Of a DNA stretch of 42,436 nucleotides, positions 30,779 to 40,136 are shown piece after piece (position 1 is the stretch's first letter; every line of letters starts with the position of its first letter). The stretch comes from Candidatus Obscuribacterales bacterium (lineage in GTDB: Bacteria; Cyanobacteriota; Vampirovibrionia; Obscuribacterales; Obscuribacteraceae): the NCBI GenBank assembly GCA_019745505.1, contig JAIETE010000140.1:1-42436 (forward strand), written 5' to 3'. A program made the position numbers and the translations under genes. The notes under the pieces were generated by a model that searched no databases, was not told where the DNA came from, and saw nothing but the letters and a program-made list of their open reading frames with translations.

Positions 30779-33700
30779 ATGGTGTCCCTAATGCCGCCTG
30801 ACCAGATTTCTGCGAAGAGTGAGCCGAATAACGCTGAGCGCCAGTCCTCTGAGAAAACAGAGGCGACCGGGGCGCACAATAGTTTTATTCGAGAATTAGC
30901 GAATTCGGTAGTGTTTTCGGCAATCGAGCAGCCGGCTCTGGGTGTTGCTCAATTCATCAGCAATGATGCGATGGTCAGTGTCAAGAACGGGTTCTCGAAA
31001 TTCGGTATCGAGGCTCCCGAGGCGGCTAAGTTCAATTCTGCCAACTGGTACGCTCAAAATTTCGGCAGCGCAGTAGGGATGATTTTACCCTTCGCGCTTA
31101 CCAAGAAAGGACTGGGCAAGCTGGGAGCCTTTGGCGAAACCGCTGCTGTTGAAACCTCGGCGCTTTCTCGCCAGTCCGCAATCGGAATGAGTATAAAAGA
31201 GTCGGCCATTACTGGCGCGGCATATGGAACCCTTTTCACTCCCAGCGATCAGTCCGCCCGAAATGCCGGATGGGTTTCATTCGTGGGCGACAGAGCAGTG
31301 AGTGGCGCCGGCAGCGCGCTCACTTTCGCGACCCTCACCGCCGGCAGTCTGGGTGTAGGTCGTTTGGCAGAAACAAGTGTAGCTTCACGTTTCGGTTTGG
31401 CACCGGTGCTGAGAAGTCCGGTTGCTTCGGGAGCATTGGGAGGTTTGCCCGGAGGAGTTGTGGCCGCAGAATACGATGCTGTGGCAAGGCACCGCCGCGC
31501 CGCAACGGTTGAAGAATTGACCGAGTCCATGTTCGGCATGGCTGTAGTCGGCGGGGCCTTTGGCGGTGTTTCTTACCTGGGGCGCTTGAAGGGAGCGGCG
31601 AATCCAGACGTCCGACCGGCAGAGCATCAGAATAAGGTTGTGGAACTAAATACGGTGCCCGCCGAGCCAATTCGAAATACTTCCGGAAGTGAATCTCGCA
31701 CAGTGGGCGGCGCGGGACGGCCTGCTGAGTTGATACCGCCTGTATCAATTAATCCGCACGAGTTTCGCAAGACTGGAAATGTCGATCAATCCGTCAGAGT
31801 TGAACTGTCTTTGCAGGAGCAGAATCTTTGGCGTCAAACTCAGCAGGCCAAAACGATCGAGGAGTGGAGAAAAGTCGCCGAGCAGATTGAAGAACTGCCG
31901 CCGGACAAGCGCCTCTGGTTTGGCGAAACGCTGGATCGGCAGGGAAACAGGCTGACCAATGCCGAACTCAATGAGCTCTGGCCAAAGCTTCTGCAGGAAG
32001 ACCCACATCAGGGCTATCGAATCGCCAAGGGCATTGGTCCGGAACGCGCCAGCCAAATTTGGCAGCAGGGCCTCGAGTCGGTTCAAAAATTCGATAATCC
32101 TGTTCTGGCAGAGCAGCTTGCCAAAACCATGGTTTTCCTCGAGCCTTCCAAGCAATTGGCAGCGCTGGAGGCGATGCTCCAATTGGAAAAACCCCCTTCC
32201 TATCTTGATATGACTTCTGTCACTCTGGCTAAAGAGAATCAGCTGGCTGCCGCCAAACTCTTGGAGCGCAAAGGTATCACGCCACAGATAGAGACCGGTG
32301 CCGTTTCTGCCTCGGTCTGGGCTGACTGGGCTCTGGGGCTGGAGCCCGGCAAAATACGTGATGGTTTGATCGATCAAATTCGCAAGAGAATTGCCGGCAG
32401 CAATAAAAATGCGGCTGAAGAATTGAATGCAGTTCTGAAGATTGCGCAAGAGAAGGGAGGACCGAAGGAGTACGAGTCGTTTAACTCGATGCTCACGGCC
32501 ATCACCCCGAGGCACGGTACTGCTGCCGATGTAGTTGCGGCTCGTTCGACAGCCTTGAATGGGATCGATGCAAAATTCATAAGCCGGATGCTTTTCTTTG
32601 AACGTGACTGGCCGATGAGCGATCAAATAGCAGCAAGAAGCCCCGAGCTTGTACGTGCGCTTGCCACCAACTCCAGATTCAATCCCAGTCTCGAGCGCAG
32701 TGCTTATCTCTCGGAGCTGATGTCTAGAAATCCACCAGTGACGGTAGAACAATTGACGGGCTCTCTTCTTGAGAGCAATCGCAAGTCCGAGGAAATGCGC
32801 CAGTATTCCTTGTTGTCGCAAGGCGATATCAAGGCTTTGGTTCAGCATGGCGTAAAAGTCGAACCCGCTCAAGTGCCTGAAGCACTGCGCGCAATTAGAG
32901 CGGATGTGATGAAATCGTTTGATCTTCCCGGCGAAAAACCAATACACCTTGGTCGCCTTTCGAACGCCATGACTCTTGCAAATGAGCTTGGTAAGAGCAA
33001 TCCCGAAGCCTTTAATCGCGAGTTCAAAGAACCGATCGAATCAGTGCTCTCCAGTAACGATTATCGATATGCACGCAGGCTGGAAGCGTCTAAAGCACTT
33101 GGTGAATTGCAACGTGCCGGATATGACGGCGCTCAAGCAATTAGAATGCCGGAACTGCGCATGGGCCGCATAGTCGAGATGACGCCCGAGGCGCAAACGA
33201 CAATGCGAACGTCGGTGGAGAAATCGCTCTTTGACAAGGAATCATTGCGAAAGATGCTGGGCGATGGGCCGCTTGGCAGATTGATGCCCAGTGTTTTTGG
33301 ACGTTCTAGCGAAGGTGGTATTGTCGGACGCAAACAGCACCAGGCTCATGATTTTTCCCTAGATAACCACTTGCTAGGCGTCGTCGACAGAGTCAAGGCC
33401 GATCCGAAATTCAAAGAGCTTTTGCCCAGCGATCAGGTAAATGTTCTCTGGGCCGCCCTGCTGCATGATGTCGGCAAGATGGAGAATATGGTGGATTTCG
33501 ACCACAACAGGACTTCAATCAGTGTAACCTGGGGTGTGTTGCGTTCGCTGGGCTATTCCGATACGCGTATCCAGCGCATCACCGATGTGATGAGCAAAGA
33601 TGCCGAGCTCAGCTACAATCCCGAGGTCAGGAATTCGGTTGCTCTGGGTAACCCGAAGGTGCTGGATGATGTGGTCAATAATTATCGCAATGCCGATGCA

Positions 33701-34672
33701 CTGAATATGGTGGCGCTTTTAAATCGAGCCGACATCAAGTCCGTGAAAGCAAATGAAGCATGGTACACGCCAGAAGTTGATGCCGAACTGGGGCGCATAC
33801 ATGATCTGGCGGCACCGCGCGTCGATGCATTGAACCGTCATCTGCTGCCGCTTTTGCCGACCAAAATTCCGCAGGGCTATGGCGGACACGTGATGTCCGA
33901 CTACAGCGTTTTTGGACATTCTCCTCGCGATCTGGCCGGACAATTCCTCAAGCAGCGCTCGACGATCGAATCTCCCGAATACTCGATGTCATTCTCCGTA
34001 TTTACTCCGGAAAATCATAAGGTTTATGAGGACGGCTCGAAAGTGATCGCGCTTGTCACCGGTCCTTTCGAACATATCGCGCAGGCAAATAGAAATAACC
34101 TCTCGACCGGGAATTCGGTCGGTTGGGATGGTCATGTTGAACTGGTGCAGAGGTGGAGCACTGACAGCAAAGCCAGTGCTTTTGCTGCAGAGGCGGAAGC
34201 CAAATTAGCGGAGCTTGGTATTCCGGCCGCTCGCAACGTGGCTGCGGAGAATTTCCCACGCCTCAACCATTTGCGCAGAGTGGCCGGCCAGTTTGACACG
34301 CTGACGGACCTCATCGCGGCAGCCGGTGAAACAGATCCGTATGTGCTGGCCGCAAAGTCCCTTCATCGGCTGATGACCACTGAGCGCGATGGGTCGCCTT
34401 TACGCACGAATAACGAAGGTAAGATGAATAATGTCAGTTTGACCGGTATTGGTTTGTTGCGCAGCGGCAATCAACCTGTTTATTTCGAAGGCATGACGCA
34501 AGCGGACCTGTTGAAATTGTGGAATGGCAAGGTCCCGGACTTTGTCTCTGCCGGTCCTGCAGGCAAGGCACCTCCTGATGCGCTTCGAGTTAGCGCTGAT
34601 GTTTCTGCATCAGCAAGAGAGCATAATCTGCCGGTGGTGATTTTGAACGATAAGGGTGCCGGACCGAATTAG
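30779..34672 (+). CDS. Giant HD-domain protein with glycine-rich N-terminus
   Basis: A 1297-aa protein; ATG 30779 is the first start, though the ribosome site is weak and ATG 30791 is also possible. Residues about 40-240 are Gly/Ala-rich hydrophobic helices (GSAVGMILPFALT, GALGGLPGGVVAAEY, FGMAVVGGAFGG), probably membrane-associated. Residues about 330-830 form a long alpha-solenoid-like helical region. An HD domain is centred on His864, His896-Asp897 (ALLHDVGK) and Asp985 (NRADIKS), the metal set of HD phosphohydrolases. A C-terminal region (about 1060-1297) is unassigned. The HD domain suggests metal-dependent phosphate-ester hydrolysis, possibly of nucleotides. No signal peptide is visible. 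Its substrate and membrane placement are unknown. I know no named family with this order. Confidence 0.75.
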   Translation: MVSLMPPDQISAKSEPNNAERQSSEKTEATGAHNSFIRELANSVVFSAIEQPALGVAQFISNDAMVSVKNGFSKFGIEAPEAAKFNSANWYAQNFGSAVGMILPFALTKKGLGKLGAFGETAAVETSALSRQSAIGMSIKESAITGAAYGTLFTPSDQSARNAGWVSFVGDRAVSGAGSALTFATLTAGSLGVGRLAETSVASRFGLAPVLRSPVASGALGGLPGGVVAAEYDAVARHRRAATVEELTESMFGMAVVGGAFGGVSYLGRLKGAANPDVRPAEHQNKVVELNTVPAEPIRNTSGSESRTVGGAGRPAELIPPVSINPHEFRKTGNVDQSVRVELSLQEQNLWRQTQQAKTIEEWRKVAEQIEELPPDKRLWFGETLDRQGNRLTNAELNELWPKLLQEDPHQGYRIAKGIGPERASQIWQQGLESVQKFDNPVLAEQLAKTMVFLEPSKQLAALEAMLQLEKPPSYLDMTSVTLAKENQLAAAKLLERKGITPQIETGAVSASVWADWALGLEPGKIRDGLIDQIRKRIAGSNKNAAEELNAVLKIAQEKGGPKEYESFNSMLTAITPRHGTAADVVAARSTALNGIDAKFISRMLFFERDWPMSDQIAARSPELVRALATNSRFNPSLERSAYLSELMSRNPPVTVEQLTGSLLESNRKSEEMRQYSLLSQGDIKALVQHGVKVEPAQVPEALRAIRADVMKSFDLPGEKPIHLGRLSNAMTLANELGKSNPEAFNREFKEPIESVLSSNDYRYARRLEASKALGELQRAGYDGAQAIRMPELRMGRIVEMTPEAQTTMRTSVEKSLFDKESLRKMLGDGPLGRLMPSVFGRSSEGGIVGRKQHQAHDFSLDNHLLGVVDRVKADPKFKELLPSDQVNVLWAALLHDVGKMENMVDFDHNRTSISVTWGVLRSLGYSDTRIQRITDVMSKDAELSYNPEVRNSVALGNPKVLDDVVNNYRNADALNMVALLNRADIKSVKANEAWYTPEVDAELGRIHDLAAPRVDALNRHLLPLLPTKIPQGYGGHVMSDYSVFGHSPRDLAGQFLKQRSTIESPEYSMSFSVFTPENHKVYEDGSKVIALVTGPFEHIAQANRNNLSTGNSVGWDGHVELVQRWSTDSKASAFAAEAEAKLAELGIPAARNVAAENFPRLNHLRRVAGQFDTLTDLIAAAGETDPYVLAAKSLHRLMTTERDGSPLRTNNEGKMNNVSLTGIGLLRSGNQPVYFEGMTQADLLKLWNGKVPDFVSAGPAGKAPPDALRVSADVSASAREHNLPVVILNDKGAGPN

Positions 34673-34820
34673 CTATATCGCGACGACAGATCTTCCTTTT
34701 GCCGATCCACACTGCTACCCATTCCATTCAGGTTTTTCGGATTTTTGCTCTTGAAAAGCGGATCTGGAATCGATTGCATATATAAGGGATAATTGTCCTC
34801 TCGCAAACAGGAGAGGGGTC

Positions 34821-36014
34821 ATGCTGAAAACCACGCCCTTGCATTCCCGTACGTCTGCGCTCATGCAAGCCAATCAGTGGCGGCGTTGGGCGGGATATTC
34901 CGTCGCCAGCTCGTATGAGATGACGCACGACCGGGAGTATTATGCAATTCGCAATGCCTGTGTCTTGATTGATATTTCGCCGCTGTGCAAATACCGGATC
35001 AAAGGCGCTGATGCACTTAAATTTCTCAACCGTCTGGTCACACGTGATGTAAGCAAGATTGGCGTTGGTGGAATGCTCTATACACCTTGGTGCGATTCGC
35101 GCGGCAAGATTCTCGATGACGGCACGATTGCGCAGCTTTCAGAAAACGAATTCCGCCTCACCTCCGCTGAGCCCAACCTTCGCTGGCTGCAGGACAATGC
35201 GGTCGGGATGCAGGTGGAAATCGAGGACGTTTCCGACAAAATTGCCGCCATGTCCTTGCAAGGACCGAGCTCCCGTGATTTGCTGACGACTATCTGCAAT
35301 GCGCCTCTGGGCGGAGTCAAATACTATGAATTCGTCAACACCAAGATTGCCGGTGTGGATGTGATGATTTCGCGCACCGGATATACCGGAGACTTGGGAT
35401 TCGAACTCTGGGTCGATGCACAGAAGGCGGAGAAAGTCTGGGACGCTGTTGTCGAGGCGGGCAAGTCGTTTGCCCTCCAGCCGGCCGGCATCTGGGCTCT
35501 CGACGTCGCGCGTATCGAAGCCGGTTTGATCATGCTGGATATCGACTATACCCCTGTCAACAAAGCGATGACGGACGGTCAAACGTCTACGCCCATAGAA
35601 CTCGGATTGAACTGGGCGATTAGCTGGAAGAAAGGCAATTTCGTTGGCCGGAAAGCTTTGCTTGCTGAAAAGGAAAACGGTTCGACCATTCAGTTTGTCG
35701 GCTTGGAGATCGATCACAAAGAGTTCGAGCGGCAGCACCATGAGCTCGGACTTACCGTGCCTTATCCTTTTATGGCTTGGAGAGCGGTAATTCCCCTTCA
35801 CTTAGACGGCTCGCAAGTCGGATATGCAACCAGCGGCGTCTGGTCTCCGACTTTGAAAAAATATCTTGCTTTCGGGCATGTTCAGCCTCAGTTTGCCAAG
35901 CCCGGATCTGTAGTGACAATTGACCTCACGGTTGATCGTTACCGCCGTCCTTTCAAGGCCACGGTGACCAAATTACCCTTCTTCAATCCGCCAAGGAAGA
36001 AAGACACACTATGA
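34821..36014 (+). CDS. GcvT-fold aminomethyltransferase-like protein
   Basis: A 397-aa protein; ATG 34821 has AGGAG at 34809-34813. It follows the GcvT/DmdA fold: an N-terminal AGYSVASSYEMTHDREYYAI, then LIDISPLCKYRIKGADALKFLNR, a folate-site region RGKILDDGTI, and SRTGYTGDLGFELW, followed by a C-terminal barrel. Classical GcvT moves the aminomethyl group of glycine to tetrahydrofolate. Relatives demethylate sarcosine, dimethylglycine or DMSP. The GcvP and GcvH partners are absent here, so a demethylase-type role is more likely. Its last bases overlap the next gene's start (ATGA), so it is translationally coupled to the two flavoproteins that follow. Confidence 0.85.
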   Translation: MLKTTPLHSRTSALMQANQWRRWAGYSVASSYEMTHDREYYAIRNACVLIDISPLCKYRIKGADALKFLNRLVTRDVSKIGVGGMLYTPWCDSRGKILDDGTIAQLSENEFRLTSAEPNLRWLQDNAVGMQVEIEDVSDKIAAMSLQGPSSRDLLTTICNAPLGGVKYYEFVNTKIAGVDVMISRTGYTGDLGFELWVDAQKAEKVWDAVVEAGKSFALQPAGIWALDVARIEAGLIMLDIDYTPVNKAMTDGQTSTPIELGLNWAISWKKGNFVGRKALLAEKENGSTIQFVGLEIDHKEFERQHHELGLTVPYPFMAWRAVIPLHLDGSQVGYATSGVWSPTLKKYLAFGHVQPQFAKPGSVVTIDLTVDRYRRPFKATVTKLPFFNPPRKKDTL

Positions 36015-37606
36015 GCAAAACAAGCAACAGTCACTACGATGTGATAGTAATCGGCGGCGGGCACAATGGTTTGGTCAATGCCGCTTATCTCGGAAAGGCC
36101 GGCAAGAAAGTGCTGGTGCTGGAGCAGCGCCACACCGTGGGTGGTGCCACAGTCACTGAGGAAGTTTATCCCGGCTTCAAGTTTCTCATCGCTTCTTATT
36201 TGATCAGCCTCCTGCGCCCGGAGGTGATTCAAGAGTTGGAGCTGGCTCGCCATGGCCTGGAGATTATGCCGCTGGAGAGCACATTTGTTCCGCTCTCCAA
36301 TGGAAATTATCTGGCTGACTGGCCCGATCATGAGGCTACTCGTCACGAGATCGAACGACATTCGAAACGTGACGCTGAAGCTTACGATGAGTATGCGCGG
36401 GTTATGAAACGCCTGGCAATAGCCCTAAGACCACTGCTCGATATGATTCCTCCTGCTCCTACTTCGGTGACACCTAAGGATTTGGAGACCATGGCTCGTG
36501 TTCGTGGTGTTTTGAACAACATGACTCGAGATGATTTTCATCTGCTCTCACGTCTGATGACAATGAGTGCAGCAGACTTTCTCGACGAGTGGTTCGAAGG
36601 CACTGCCTTGAAGGGAACCAAATGCACAAGCGGCATCATCGGCACTTTTATGGGACCACGTTCTCCCGGAACCGGATATGTACTGCTTCACCATTACATC
36701 GGTGAGTTGGACGGAACGTTCCGGGCCTGGGGATTGGCACGCGGTGGAACCGGCGCTTTGAGCCAGGCGATTGCCAGTGCCGCACGTGAGGCGGGAGTCG
36801 AGATCAAGACGAATTCTCCTGTCGCACAGGTAAATATCAAGAACGGCGAGGCAACAGGCGTAACGCTCGAGAATGGTGATGAGTACAGCGCCGGCATCGT
36901 AGTGTCGAATGCTGATGCGAAAAGAACATTCTTGAAGCTGATTGACCCGAAAAATTTGCCCGATCAGTTCGTCGGCGATGTGAACAGATTTCGTATCGCC
37001 AGTCCAGCTTGCAAAGTCAATCTCGCGCTGGACGGTCTGCCGGAATTTACTTCCATGCCGAAGGGCAAAGAAGCATTGCTGCGTGGTTCGATCGAAATTG
37101 CTCCCAGTATCGATTATGTAGAGCAAGCTTACGATGATGCCAAATATGGTGGCTGGTCCAAGAAACCATTCATGGATGCCTTGATTCCTTCCCTTCTGGA
37201 TCCGGGCATGGCTCCTCCCGGCAAGCATGTTATGTCGCTCTTCGTCCAGTATGCGTCATCCGACCTGGAAGGCGGCTGGAACGAAGAGAAAAAGGCTCAA
37301 TTCCTCGATATCGTTATCGATACTCTGGCAGAACATGCTCCCAATCTGAAAAAAATCCTCATCCATAAGCACATCATGACGCCTTGGGATTTGGAGAGAA
37401 TGATAGGACTGACGAGCGGACATATCTTCCACGGTGAATTGGCGTTGCAGCAATTGTTCTTCCTGCGTCCGTCACCGCAATGGTCCAATTACAGGACTCC
37501 GATCAAAAACATGTATATGTGCGGCAGCAGTACACATCCGGGCGGCTGCATCACTGGCGCTCCCGGGCGCAATGCGGCACTGGCTATTCTGGAGGATCGC
37601 CCATGA
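36011..37606 (+). CDS. FAD-dependent oxidoreductase (PYROXD2/phytoene desaturase-type)
   Basis: A 531-aa protein with an intact FAD-binding Rossmann start, VIVIGGGHNG (GxGxxG at 15-20), EQR ending the second strand, and the C-terminal FAD-binding HPGGCITGAPGRNAA. Its length and internal blocks match PYROXD2/CrtI-like oxidoreductases, which oxidise C-C or C-N bonds; the substrate is unknown. No carotenoid genes lie beside it, so I do not call it a phytoene desaturase. It overlaps the GcvT-like gene by four bases and the second flavoprotein gene by four bases, a rigid three-gene operon. Confidence 0.9.
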   Translation: MSKTSNSHYDVIVIGGGHNGLVNAAYLGKAGKKVLVLEQRHTVGGATVTEEVYPGFKFLIASYLISLLRPEVIQELELARHGLEIMPLESTFVPLSNGNYLADWPDHEATRHEIERHSKRDAEAYDEYARVMKRLAIALRPLLDMIPPAPTSVTPKDLETMARVRGVLNNMTRDDFHLLSRLMTMSAADFLDEWFEGTALKGTKCTSGIIGTFMGPRSPGTGYVLLHHYIGELDGTFRAWGLARGGTGALSQAIASAAREAGVEIKTNSPVAQVNIKNGEATGVTLENGDEYSAGIVVSNADAKRTFLKLIDPKNLPDQFVGDVNRFRIASPACKVNLALDGLPEFTSMPKGKEALLRGSIEIAPSIDYVEQAYDDAKYGGWSKKPFMDALIPSLLDPGMAPPGKHVMSLFVQYASSDLEGGWNEEKKAQFLDIVIDTLAEHAPNLKKILIHKHIMTPWDLERMIGLTSGHIFHGELALQQLFFLRPSPQWSNYRTPIKNMYMCGSSTHPGGCITGAPGRNAALAILEDRP

Positions 37607-39150
37607 ACACTTACGACACGATAATTCTGGGTTCTTCCCCCAATGCCTTGACCGCAGCCTGCTATCTGGCTCGCGGCGGACACAAAGTGCTGGTTTTGGA
37701 ACCGTCCGAGCAAATTGGTGGCGCTGCTGCGACCGCGCAATTTCATGATGGTTTCATGGGTGATATTGGTTTGATGAGCGGGCGGCTCGATGATGAAATC
37801 ATCAATGATTTAAAACTTGCAGACCACGGACTGGAAATTATCCAACGCAAGACGCTCACCAGTTTGCTCTCCGGCGGCAAGAGCTTTACCTTGCCTGTCG
37901 ACCGGGATGCTGCAGAAAAAGTAGTGGCAGGCATTTCTGGCGAAGATGCTAAAAAGTACAAGGCATTCATGCAACTTGTCGATCTAGCCGGCGACTTCTT
38001 GAAGAGTGCATACGGTGTCACGCCTCCTCGCAATCATCCGCCCGCCAAGGATGATCTAGAAACGCTTTCCAGGCTTGCCTCCCAGTTGAAAGGTTATGGA
38101 CGTCGCGAGATGACTGAGGTGATGCGTTTGCTCGTCATGTCCGTGCGTGACCTGATGGATGAATGGTTTGTCAGTCCCCAGCTGAAGGGTTTGCTCGCAT
38201 CGACTGCTATCCGCGGCATCAATCAAGGACCTTTTGCCGGAAATACCACCTTTACGCTTTTGCATCATGTTGCTCAAGGGGACGGATTTTTCCGCTCCAC
38301 TGCCAGAGGCGGCCTGGGTGGATTGTCTCAGGCTCTGGCGGCGGCGGCGCAGTCGCATGGCGTGGAAATTCGCACCATGTGCGGCTCTCTCAGTATCAAC
38401 ATCAAAGACGGCACTGCCACCGGTGTAAAGGTTGCCAGTCAGTCTATCGACGCTTCACTGATATTGTCGGATTATGATGCCCGCTATACATTTACTCAGT
38501 TGGTGGCACCTCCTGAATTAGAGCCTGAATTCAACCGCGCGGTAAAAAATATTCGTTACAGCGGAGCCGTTGCTCGTCTCAATTTCGCACTCAAGGAAAT
38601 GCCGAGGTTTGCTGGATTGACGGAGGATGCATTGAGCGGAACGCTTATGTTGTCGCCCAGCATCAACTATCTGGAAAAAGCTTATGATGGCGGCAAACGT
38701 GGAGATATTTCCAAAGAGCCATATTTGGAGTTGACGATTCCGACTGCCGGTGACTCCACTCTTGCACCGAAAGGTAAGCATGTGATGTCTGTTTGGATGC
38801 AGTATACGCCTTGCCACAGTACCGTAAAGCCTGACCAGCTGCGCGATCTGGTGTTGCAGCAGTTGAGCGAGTTTTGCCCGAATCTCAAGTCGCTTGTAGA
38901 GCACTCGCAGGTTATTACCGCTCGCGAATTCGAATCTCAATATAAGCTGACCGAGGGCAATCTCTACGGCGGCCAGATAAATCTAACGCAGTCATTCTAC
39001 CTGCGGCCGCTTGCCGGATTTGCCCATTACTCTACGCCGATATCACAGCTTTACCTCTGTGGATCGGCCACGCATCCCGGCGGCATTACCGGCTTGTCCG
39101 GCAGAAATGCCGCCCGCGAAGCCGGTGTTAGAGATATGGTTCCGGCCTGA
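37603..39150 (+). CDS. Second PYROXD2-type flavoprotein with degenerate nucleotide loop
   Basis: ATG 37603 has GGAGG at 37591-37595 and overlaps the previous stop (ATGA), which fixes the start at 515 aa; longer readings run inside the upstream gene. The fold and length match its neighbour, with which it is paralogous (for example LADHGLEII/LARHGLEIM, DLMDEWF/DFLDEWF). Its first loop reads GSSPNAL, so two of the three GxGxxG glycines are Ser and Ala. The C-terminal FAD motif (THPGGITGLSGRNAA) is intact. It may bind FAD poorly, or form a structural or regulatory subunit with the intact paralogue (inference). Confidence 0.88.
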   Translation: MNTYDTIILGSSPNALTAACYLARGGHKVLVLEPSEQIGGAAATAQFHDGFMGDIGLMSGRLDDEIINDLKLADHGLEIIQRKTLTSLLSGGKSFTLPVDRDAAEKVVAGISGEDAKKYKAFMQLVDLAGDFLKSAYGVTPPRNHPPAKDDLETLSRLASQLKGYGRREMTEVMRLLVMSVRDLMDEWFVSPQLKGLLASTAIRGINQGPFAGNTTFTLLHHVAQGDGFFRSTARGGLGGLSQALAAAAQSHGVEIRTMCGSLSINIKDGTATGVKVASQSIDASLILSDYDARYTFTQLVAPPELEPEFNRAVKNIRYSGAVARLNFALKEMPRFAGLTEDALSGTLMLSPSINYLEKAYDGGKRGDISKEPYLELTIPTAGDSTLAPKGKHVMSVWMQYTPCHSTVKPDQLRDLVLQQLSEFCPNLKSLVEHSQVITAREFESQYKLTEGNLYGGQINLTQSFYLRPLAGFAHYSTPISQLYLCGSATHPGGITGLSGRNAAREAGVRDMVPA

Positions 39151-39341: not shown

Positions 39342-40136
39342 ATGACAATTAGATCTCACGTAATCGACTATGTGATCCTGGGTGACGACATGCAAGCTGT
39401 GGAGATTGAGCTTGATCCCGGCGAAACCGTAATTGCCGAAGCGGGCGCTATGAATTACATGGAAGAGGGAATTGCTTTTGAGGCAAAGATGGGTGACGGC
39501 ACCGATGCCGACCAGGGAATGATGGGCAAATTATTTGGTGCCGGAAAGCGTTTGCTGGCTGGCGAGTCATTGATGATCACTCACTTCACCAACCAGGGCC
39601 GCGGCAAGCAGAAGGTTGCATTTGCTGCTCCTTATCCGGGCAAAATAATTCCCATGAATCTTGGCGAAATGGGCGGTGAAGTGATCGTGCAAAGAGACGG
39701 GTTTCTATGCGCTGCATTTGGCACCAAATTGAATGTCGCTTTCACTCAAAAGCTGGGCGCCGGTTTCTTTGGTGGAGAAGGTTTCGTGCTGCAGAGTTTG
39801 AAAGGTGATGGTATGGCTTTCGTGCATGCCTGCGGCGCTATCATCAAGCGCGAACTCAGAGGTGAAACATTGCGAGTAGACACTGGTTGTATCGTCGCTT
39901 TTACGCCTGGTATTTCTTATGATATCCAGCGCGCCGGTAATTTGAAATCGATGATATTCGGTGGAGAGGGGCTTTTTCTCGCAACATTGAGAGGAACAGG
40001 AACGGTATGGATGCAGAGCCTGCCATTTTCTCGACTGGCCAACAGGATTCTCGAACACGCTCCTCAAAGCGGCGGCAACAGCGCCGAGCAAGCCGGCGGT
40101 TTGATGGGGCTTGGCAGAATGTTCGAATCTGAATAG
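39342..40136 (+). CDS. AIM24/TIGR00266 family protein
   Basis: A 264-aa protein with the AIM24/TIGR00266 beta-fold. Typical pieces are the opening [62 protein letters not shown] and [20 protein letters not shown]. It is cytosolic. The family is widespread; in yeast AIM24 supports mitochondrial membrane organisation, and the bacterial role is not known. The C-terminal part (about 235-264) is Gly/Ser-rich and variable. An AAAGGAAAG stretch precedes ATG 39342. The TPR gene follows on the same strand after 76 bases. Confidence 0.9.

Follow-up and report, generated by a model that had tools for sequence, protein, structure and literature searches.

Three adjacent genes of a Candidatus Obscuribacterales draft genome, encoding a GcvT-like folate-domain protein (GT) and two flavoproteins (A and B), are a co-inherited unit. 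What we infer for their products is a complex, a reaction, its direction, and a class of substrate: on balance they are likely to act as a single A-B-GcvT complex that works on mono- or dimethylated amines, oxidizing an N-methyl group and passing the one-carbon (C1) unit to tetrahydrofolate (THF). The chemistry, in which a flavin enzyme removes an N-methyl group and a GcvT-type protein accepts the C1 unit, is of a kind already known; the architecture, a CrtO/PYROXD2-type A/B pair with a stand-alone GcvT-like subunit, fits no family tested. No paper describing or naming the trio was found in the searchable open-access literature, and the cassette is at present annotated only as “aminomethyltransferase family protein” plus two copies of “NAD(P)/FAD-dependent oxidoreductase.”

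Structure of the Locus

The window (the whole 42,436-nt stretch of DNA analyzed) belongs to a 6.7-Mb draft genome. Reading of its ORFs gives three co-directional genes on the forward strand: GT (positions 34821–36014; 397 aa), A (36011–37606; 531 aa), and B (37603–39150; 515 aa), with ATG start codons at 34821, 36011, and 37603. A belongs to the CrtO/CrtI-monoamine oxidase clan and is the presumed catalytic subunit; B is a fast-evolving paralog of A, presumed to be a partner or scaffold, or an electron-relay subunit. The longer in-frame ORF that can be read for B from 37480 represents an upstream start only. A GGAG sequence at 34810–34813, 11 to 8 bases 5′ of the GT start codon, is a probable ribosome-binding site. 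Each gene overlaps the next by four bases (ATGA), as a preliminary description of this DNA had stated: GT and A at 36011–36014, where translation is presumably coupled, and A and B at 37603–37606.

The GcvT-Like Protein

GT carries both Pfam domains expected of a glycine-cleavage T-protein, GCV_T (PF01571, E = 4e-65) and GCV_T_C (PF08669, E = 9e-13), and differs from T-proteins by an insert around residues 300–325. It scores below the cut-offs of all the specific curated NCBIfam models: for GcvT, 195.3 bits with TIGR00528 (cut-off 235.85) and 242.2 with PRK00389 (cut-off 300); for trimethylamine N-oxide (TMAO) demethylase, 268.5 with NF053776 (cut-off 1100), covering only profile positions 386–760 of 763; for SoxA, 171.9 with TIGR01372 (cut-off 1164); and for DmdA, LigM, and DesA, 131 (410), 73.9 (580), and 81.8 (800), respectively. 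Its profile aligns over its full length with T-proteins of solved structure, as well as with the folate domains of TMAO demethylase, dimethylglycine (DMG) oxidase/dehydrogenase, and sarcosine oxidase.

The landmarks of the folate-dependent GcvT superfamily, shared with the T-proteins, are all present: the Asp of the DD motif, the RTG(Y/F)(T/S)G-x-x-G-x-E motif, and R-x-E. The codons for D99-D100 are at 35115–35120; where true GcvT has the Asp of its VDD motif, GT has the invariant D100; the second motif reads (S)RTGYTGDLGFE and includes E195 (codon at 35403–35405), also invariant in true GcvT. In an alignment of 23 trio proteins with the GcvT of the window's own genome, D100, R185-T186-G187, E195, R231, and E233 are invariant. 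These landmark residues we take to be the folate pocket, a role established for T-proteins and carried over to GT by alignment; to that extent, the preliminary description's assignment of a folate-linked fold stands, and the missing folate pocket that it named as grounds for refutation is not what the sequence shows.

A Pair of Paralogous Flavoproteins

A and B both match PF01593 and NAD_binding_8 above the Pfam gathering scores and are 37% identical to each other over 515 aa, which makes them paralogs. For both, the best NCBIfam model is CrtO (NF045689), with 344.9 bits for A and 200 for B (cut-off 1000); the CrtI family model TIGR02734 (cut-off 238.1) gives 118.9 and 106.5 bits. AlphaFold2 models of the monomers (A, pLDDT 84 and pTM 0.86; B, pLDDT 90 and pTM 0.91) most resemble the carotenoid desaturase CrtD, followed by the nicotine oxidoreductase NicA2 and by 6-hydroxynicotine, putrescine, and monoamine oxidases. 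The B model also resembles Rab-GDI, a protein that shares this fold and is not an oxidase.

The FAD (dinucleotide) motif of A, GGGHNG at 36053–36070, is exact in 62 of 66 trios. In B, the GxGxxG is replaced by GSSPNA (37630–37647) in every trio seen from Obscuribacterales and Eremiobacterota; outside those lineages the motif varies, with GGGxNS or GGGxNA in some and an intact GAGHNG or GGGHNG in many. Among the 66 complete trios, near-invariant residues number 104 in A, 52 in GT, and 12 in B, mean pairwise identities are 63, 53, and 41%, respectively, and B is the least similar of the three proteins in 2130 of 2145 species pairs. A quick tree separates A and B into two ancient groups, with only two label changes needed and with long branches for B. 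Since A is constrained and B is not, the catalytic FAD subunit is probably A, to judge by its sequence, and B is probably an obligate partner that in some lineages can now do without an FAD site of its own; in the lineage of the window B probably has a structural or electron-relay role and is likely no normal FAD oxidase. The preliminary description had read the two as a pair of oxidoreductases: the flavoprotein folds stand, but probably not their independence, given that they are paralogs and that B has lost its GxGxxG here.

Distribution and Gene Order

A scan of GTDB with A as query yielded 80 loci, at 55–91% identity. All three genes are present at 67 of these, and most of the exceptions are at contig ends; L036, L070, and L089 are without a nearby GT, and L040 and L061 without a nearby B. 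The trio spans about 12 phyla, so that it is not rare, a point on which the preliminary description had made its proposal depend. The taxa represented are Obscuribacterales, Eremiobacterota, Gemmatimonadota, Acidobacteriota, Chloroflexota, Delta-, Beta-, and Gammaproteobacteria, Eisenbacteria, Neomarinimicrobiota, Rhodothermota/Bacteroidota, and one actinobacterial and one Thermoplasmata metagenome-assembled genome (MAG), although MAG labels may be wrong. Relatives of the window's trio include Obscuribacterales and Melainabacteria MAGs.

Three gene orders are found: GT-A-B at 40 loci; a divergent GT with A-B at 27, including those in Acidobacteria and Deltaproteobacteria; and A-B-GT in Alphaproteobacteria. 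A and B overlap or are no more than 30 bp apart at 55 of 63 loci, while the four-base GT/A overlap is found at 11 of 43 same-strand loci. “Rigid operon,” the term used in the preliminary description, is thus apt for A and B and less so for GT, which may be divergent or come last. Tight A-B linkage and completeness of the trio are both at frequencies exceeding chance by far, and that membership is kept despite reshuffled order is strong evidence of one functional unit. At closer range, among the window's genome and 59 relatives, the distribution is all-or-none: GT, A, and B co-occur in the same five of the 60 genomes and are absent elsewhere. These five represent two genera, with unrelated genes flanking the trio.

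Two loci have doubtful labels. L018, from an Acidobacteria-labeled MAG, has GT and A 75–84% identical to those of the window and GSSPNA in its B, and its trio was either acquired horizontally or sits on an Obscuribacterales contig that was binned wrongly. L095, on a possibly mis-binned Thermoplasmata-labeled contig, has a trio plus an extra flavoprotein paralog across GT.

Gene Neighborhoods in Other Phyla

Neighbor clustering and model searches identified GbcA-like Rieske oxygenase genes at 19 loci in at least eight phyla. They lie close to the trio: 13 of 22 Rieske copies are within 400 bp of it, versus 20% of all neighbors (p about 6e-5, uncorrected for relatedness). The Rieske gene is directly downstream in Gemmatimonadota, Chloroflexota, and Neomarinimicrobiota, and in Alphaproteobacteria, where it follows GT. 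The GbcA-like neighbors tested score at most 229 bits, well under the GbcA cut-off of 670, which makes glycine betaine itself an improbable substrate. In Acidobacteria, B is followed by PurU (formyl-THF deformylase). Genes for amino acid/polyamine (APC) permeases, class III aminotransferases, and BHMT-like proteins also recur near trios; none of the three kinds showed significant proximity in a neighbor-distance test.

A DDAH-like (dimethylargininase/arginine deiminase-like) gene is directly 5′ of GT in Neomarinimicrobiota, and in one Gemmatimonadales MAG is found after B on the opposite strand. The loci with such genes are L077, L084, L092, L094, L097, and L026; an ArgE/DapE-type deacylase gene adjoins in most Neomarinimicrobiota. 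The DDAH-like and deacylase neighbors hint that the methylated substrate is a guanidino compound or is N-acylated.

The context is probably catabolic, the breakdown of a quaternary or methylated amine, with the Rieske enzyme taking the first methyl group, the trio the next, and the C1 unit going to folate. Oxidation of an N- or S-methyl group with C1 transfer to THF had been put forward in the preliminary description; the Rieske, PurU, and DDAH-like neighbors speak for the N-methyl version, and the S-methyl version is less favored.

Two further arrangements may be related. A Shinella sumterensis plasmid (L013:9992-12743) has a single A-like flavoprotein and a GcvT scoring above the gcvT cut-off, in an operon that also holds a carnitine-3-dehydrogenase-like gene and a BKACE-type cleavage gene; this pair is possibly a two-component relative of the trio. 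Beside alphaproteobacterial trios (L011:16630-18666 and L012:18343-20382) are genes for Old-yellow-enzyme/FadH-type flavoproteins of about 680 aa, each a candidate for a further oxidoreductase of the trio pathway.

Proposed Function and Alternatives

In the reaction we propose, the substrate would be a tertiary or secondary amine, methylated as an N,N-dimethyl or N-methyl compound. A would use its FAD to dehydrogenate an N-methyl group, yielding an iminium; GT would move the one-carbon unit to THF, so that 5,10-methylene-THF is formed and the amine is released in demethylated form; and B would be retained for assembly or stability of the complex, or for electron relay. In many phyla, the adjacent Rieske oxygenase would remove the first methyl group of a quaternary ammonium compound ahead of the trio step. 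Dimethylated amino compounds are the favored substrates. Counting against this proposal, the CrtO/CrtI clan also holds desaturases and non-catalytic members.

The nearest known systems are DMG oxidase and dehydrogenase (DMGO/DMGDH) and heterotetrameric sarcosine oxidase, which likewise combine FAD-dependent amine oxidation with C1 capture by a THF domain of the GcvT type. The flavin domain of these enzymes is of the DAO type, fused N-terminal to the GcvT domain in DMGO/DMGDH, whereas in the trio a CrtO/MAO-clan flavoprotein is accompanied by its own paralog and by a GcvT-like subunit that stands alone, all from separate genes; nor are its other genes SoxB, SoxD, or SoxG. TMAO demethylase (Tdm) has an extra N-terminal half, which is metal-dependent, and no flavin, in contrast to the trio with its GT and flavoproteins. 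The C-terminal GcvT domain of Tdm is among the closest matches to GT (268 bits in NCBIfam; PDB 9q59). CrtO and CrtI have their fold and best sequence model in common with A and B, but A and B score below the cut-offs and are paired with a GcvT. In glycine betaine catabolism, a pathway that also includes PurU, the order of steps is the one proposed for the trio: the Rieske enzyme GbcA takes the first methyl group, and flavin/THF enzymes take the others by demethylation of DMG and sarcosine. That no named pathway fits exactly, as the preliminary description remarked, agrees with the failure to reach any specific family cut-off.

A possible parallel is found in animals. Among finch proteins, PYROXD2 comes closest to CrtO, being about 35% identical to that of Synechocystis, and when tested for activity on carotenoids it showed none (PMC12010460). 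The human PYROXD2 locus maps to dimethylamine and trimethylamine in metabolite genome-wide association studies (PMC3169529), to N6-methyl- and N6,N6-dimethyllysine (PMC9730628, PMC7878905), and to N2-acetyl,N6,N6-dimethyllysine (PMC13352909). A would belong to the broad PYROXD2 family, and the link to methylated amines is a parallel drawn by way of the literature on CrtO likeness. A bolder version of our proposal, which we advance tentatively and rate at somewhat under an even chance, is that the trio represents an unnamed and ancient class of three-subunit, THF-dependent oxidative N-demethylases, built on a PYROXD2/CrtO-type pair instead of a DAO-type enzyme, present in about a dozen phyla, acting on Rieske-released methylamino compounds (N,N-dimethyllysine, dimethylaminobutyrate, or dimethylamine, for example), and sharing its reaction type with human PYROXD2. 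If our reading of the trio is right, methylated amines would feed the folate C1 pool of many soil and marine phyla by a route that is new. The trio would be a second and independent evolutionary solution to the task of DMG and sarcosine oxidases, and it would supply a concrete candidate reaction for PYROXD2, an orphan human enzyme linked to disease.

A GcvT fold plus a flavin would suit either direction of C1 transfer. In reverse, 5,10-methylene-THF would be spent and the flavoprotein would reduce the C1 unit to a methyl group on the substrate, as in ThyX or TrmFO, making the trio a biosynthetic or an RNA- or protein-modifying methylase; the window's trio, without catabolic neighbors, is compatible with this. 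In relatives, however, the Rieske oxygenases, transporters, PurU, and carnitine-type operon indicate catabolism, and the patchy, all-or-none distribution is unlike that of a housekeeping modification; we consider the reverse direction unlikely. The matches of GT to the DmdA and LigM models could instead point to O- or S-demethylation, with GT as a DmdA- or LigM-like THF methyltransferase and A and B oxidizing the demethylated product, but these matches are weak, lower than those to T-protein or TMAO demethylase, and no aryl or sulfonium catabolic genes recur near the trios, so that this too seems rather improbable.

With CrtO as best model and CrtD as nearest solved fold, A could conceivably be a CrtO/CrtI-type enzyme of carotenoid or isoprenoid modification, with B as partner and GT as an incidental or structural folate protein. 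This is very unlikely: both flavoproteins are far under the CrtO and CrtI-family cut-offs, GT is co-inherited at almost every locus, no carotenoid genes were recognized among the recurrent neighbors of the trio, and avian PYROXD2 is inactive on carotenoids (PMC12010460). A role for GT as a further glycine-cleavage T-protein, or as an accessory to one, is hardly credible in spite of the shared Pfam architecture. A typical gcvT is present separately in the genome, on contig C36 (368 aa; 320 bits, versus 221 for GT), and GT is only 30% identical to it; GT does not reach the gcvT cut-offs; and it shares its operon with flavoproteins and not with a P- or H-protein.

The Genome of the Window

The window's genome also counts against the proposal: no Rieske, BHMT, or transporter genes were found beside its trio, and PurU is absent from the genome as a whole. 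There are two Rieske alpha genes elsewhere in it. The better of these was considered as a partner for the N-demethylation proposed here, but is present in trio-less relatives and was not found in G018, a relative with the trio; as it does not track the trio, no Rieske partner is claimed for this genome.

The immediate flanking genes (a 1297-aa ORF, an AIM24-family gene, and L,D-transpeptidase-like and M23-like genes) were rejected as members of the unit because their conservation around the trio holds within the same genus and does not extend to g12, the other trio genus. The 1297-aa ORF, upstream at 30779–34672 (+), has no Pfam match at E ≤ 0.001; it is 75–82% identical where kept beside the trio in the same genus. 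The AIM24-family gene (PF01987) is at 39342–40136 (+), 191 bp downstream of the trio, and its product is 96–98% identical in same-genus relatives.
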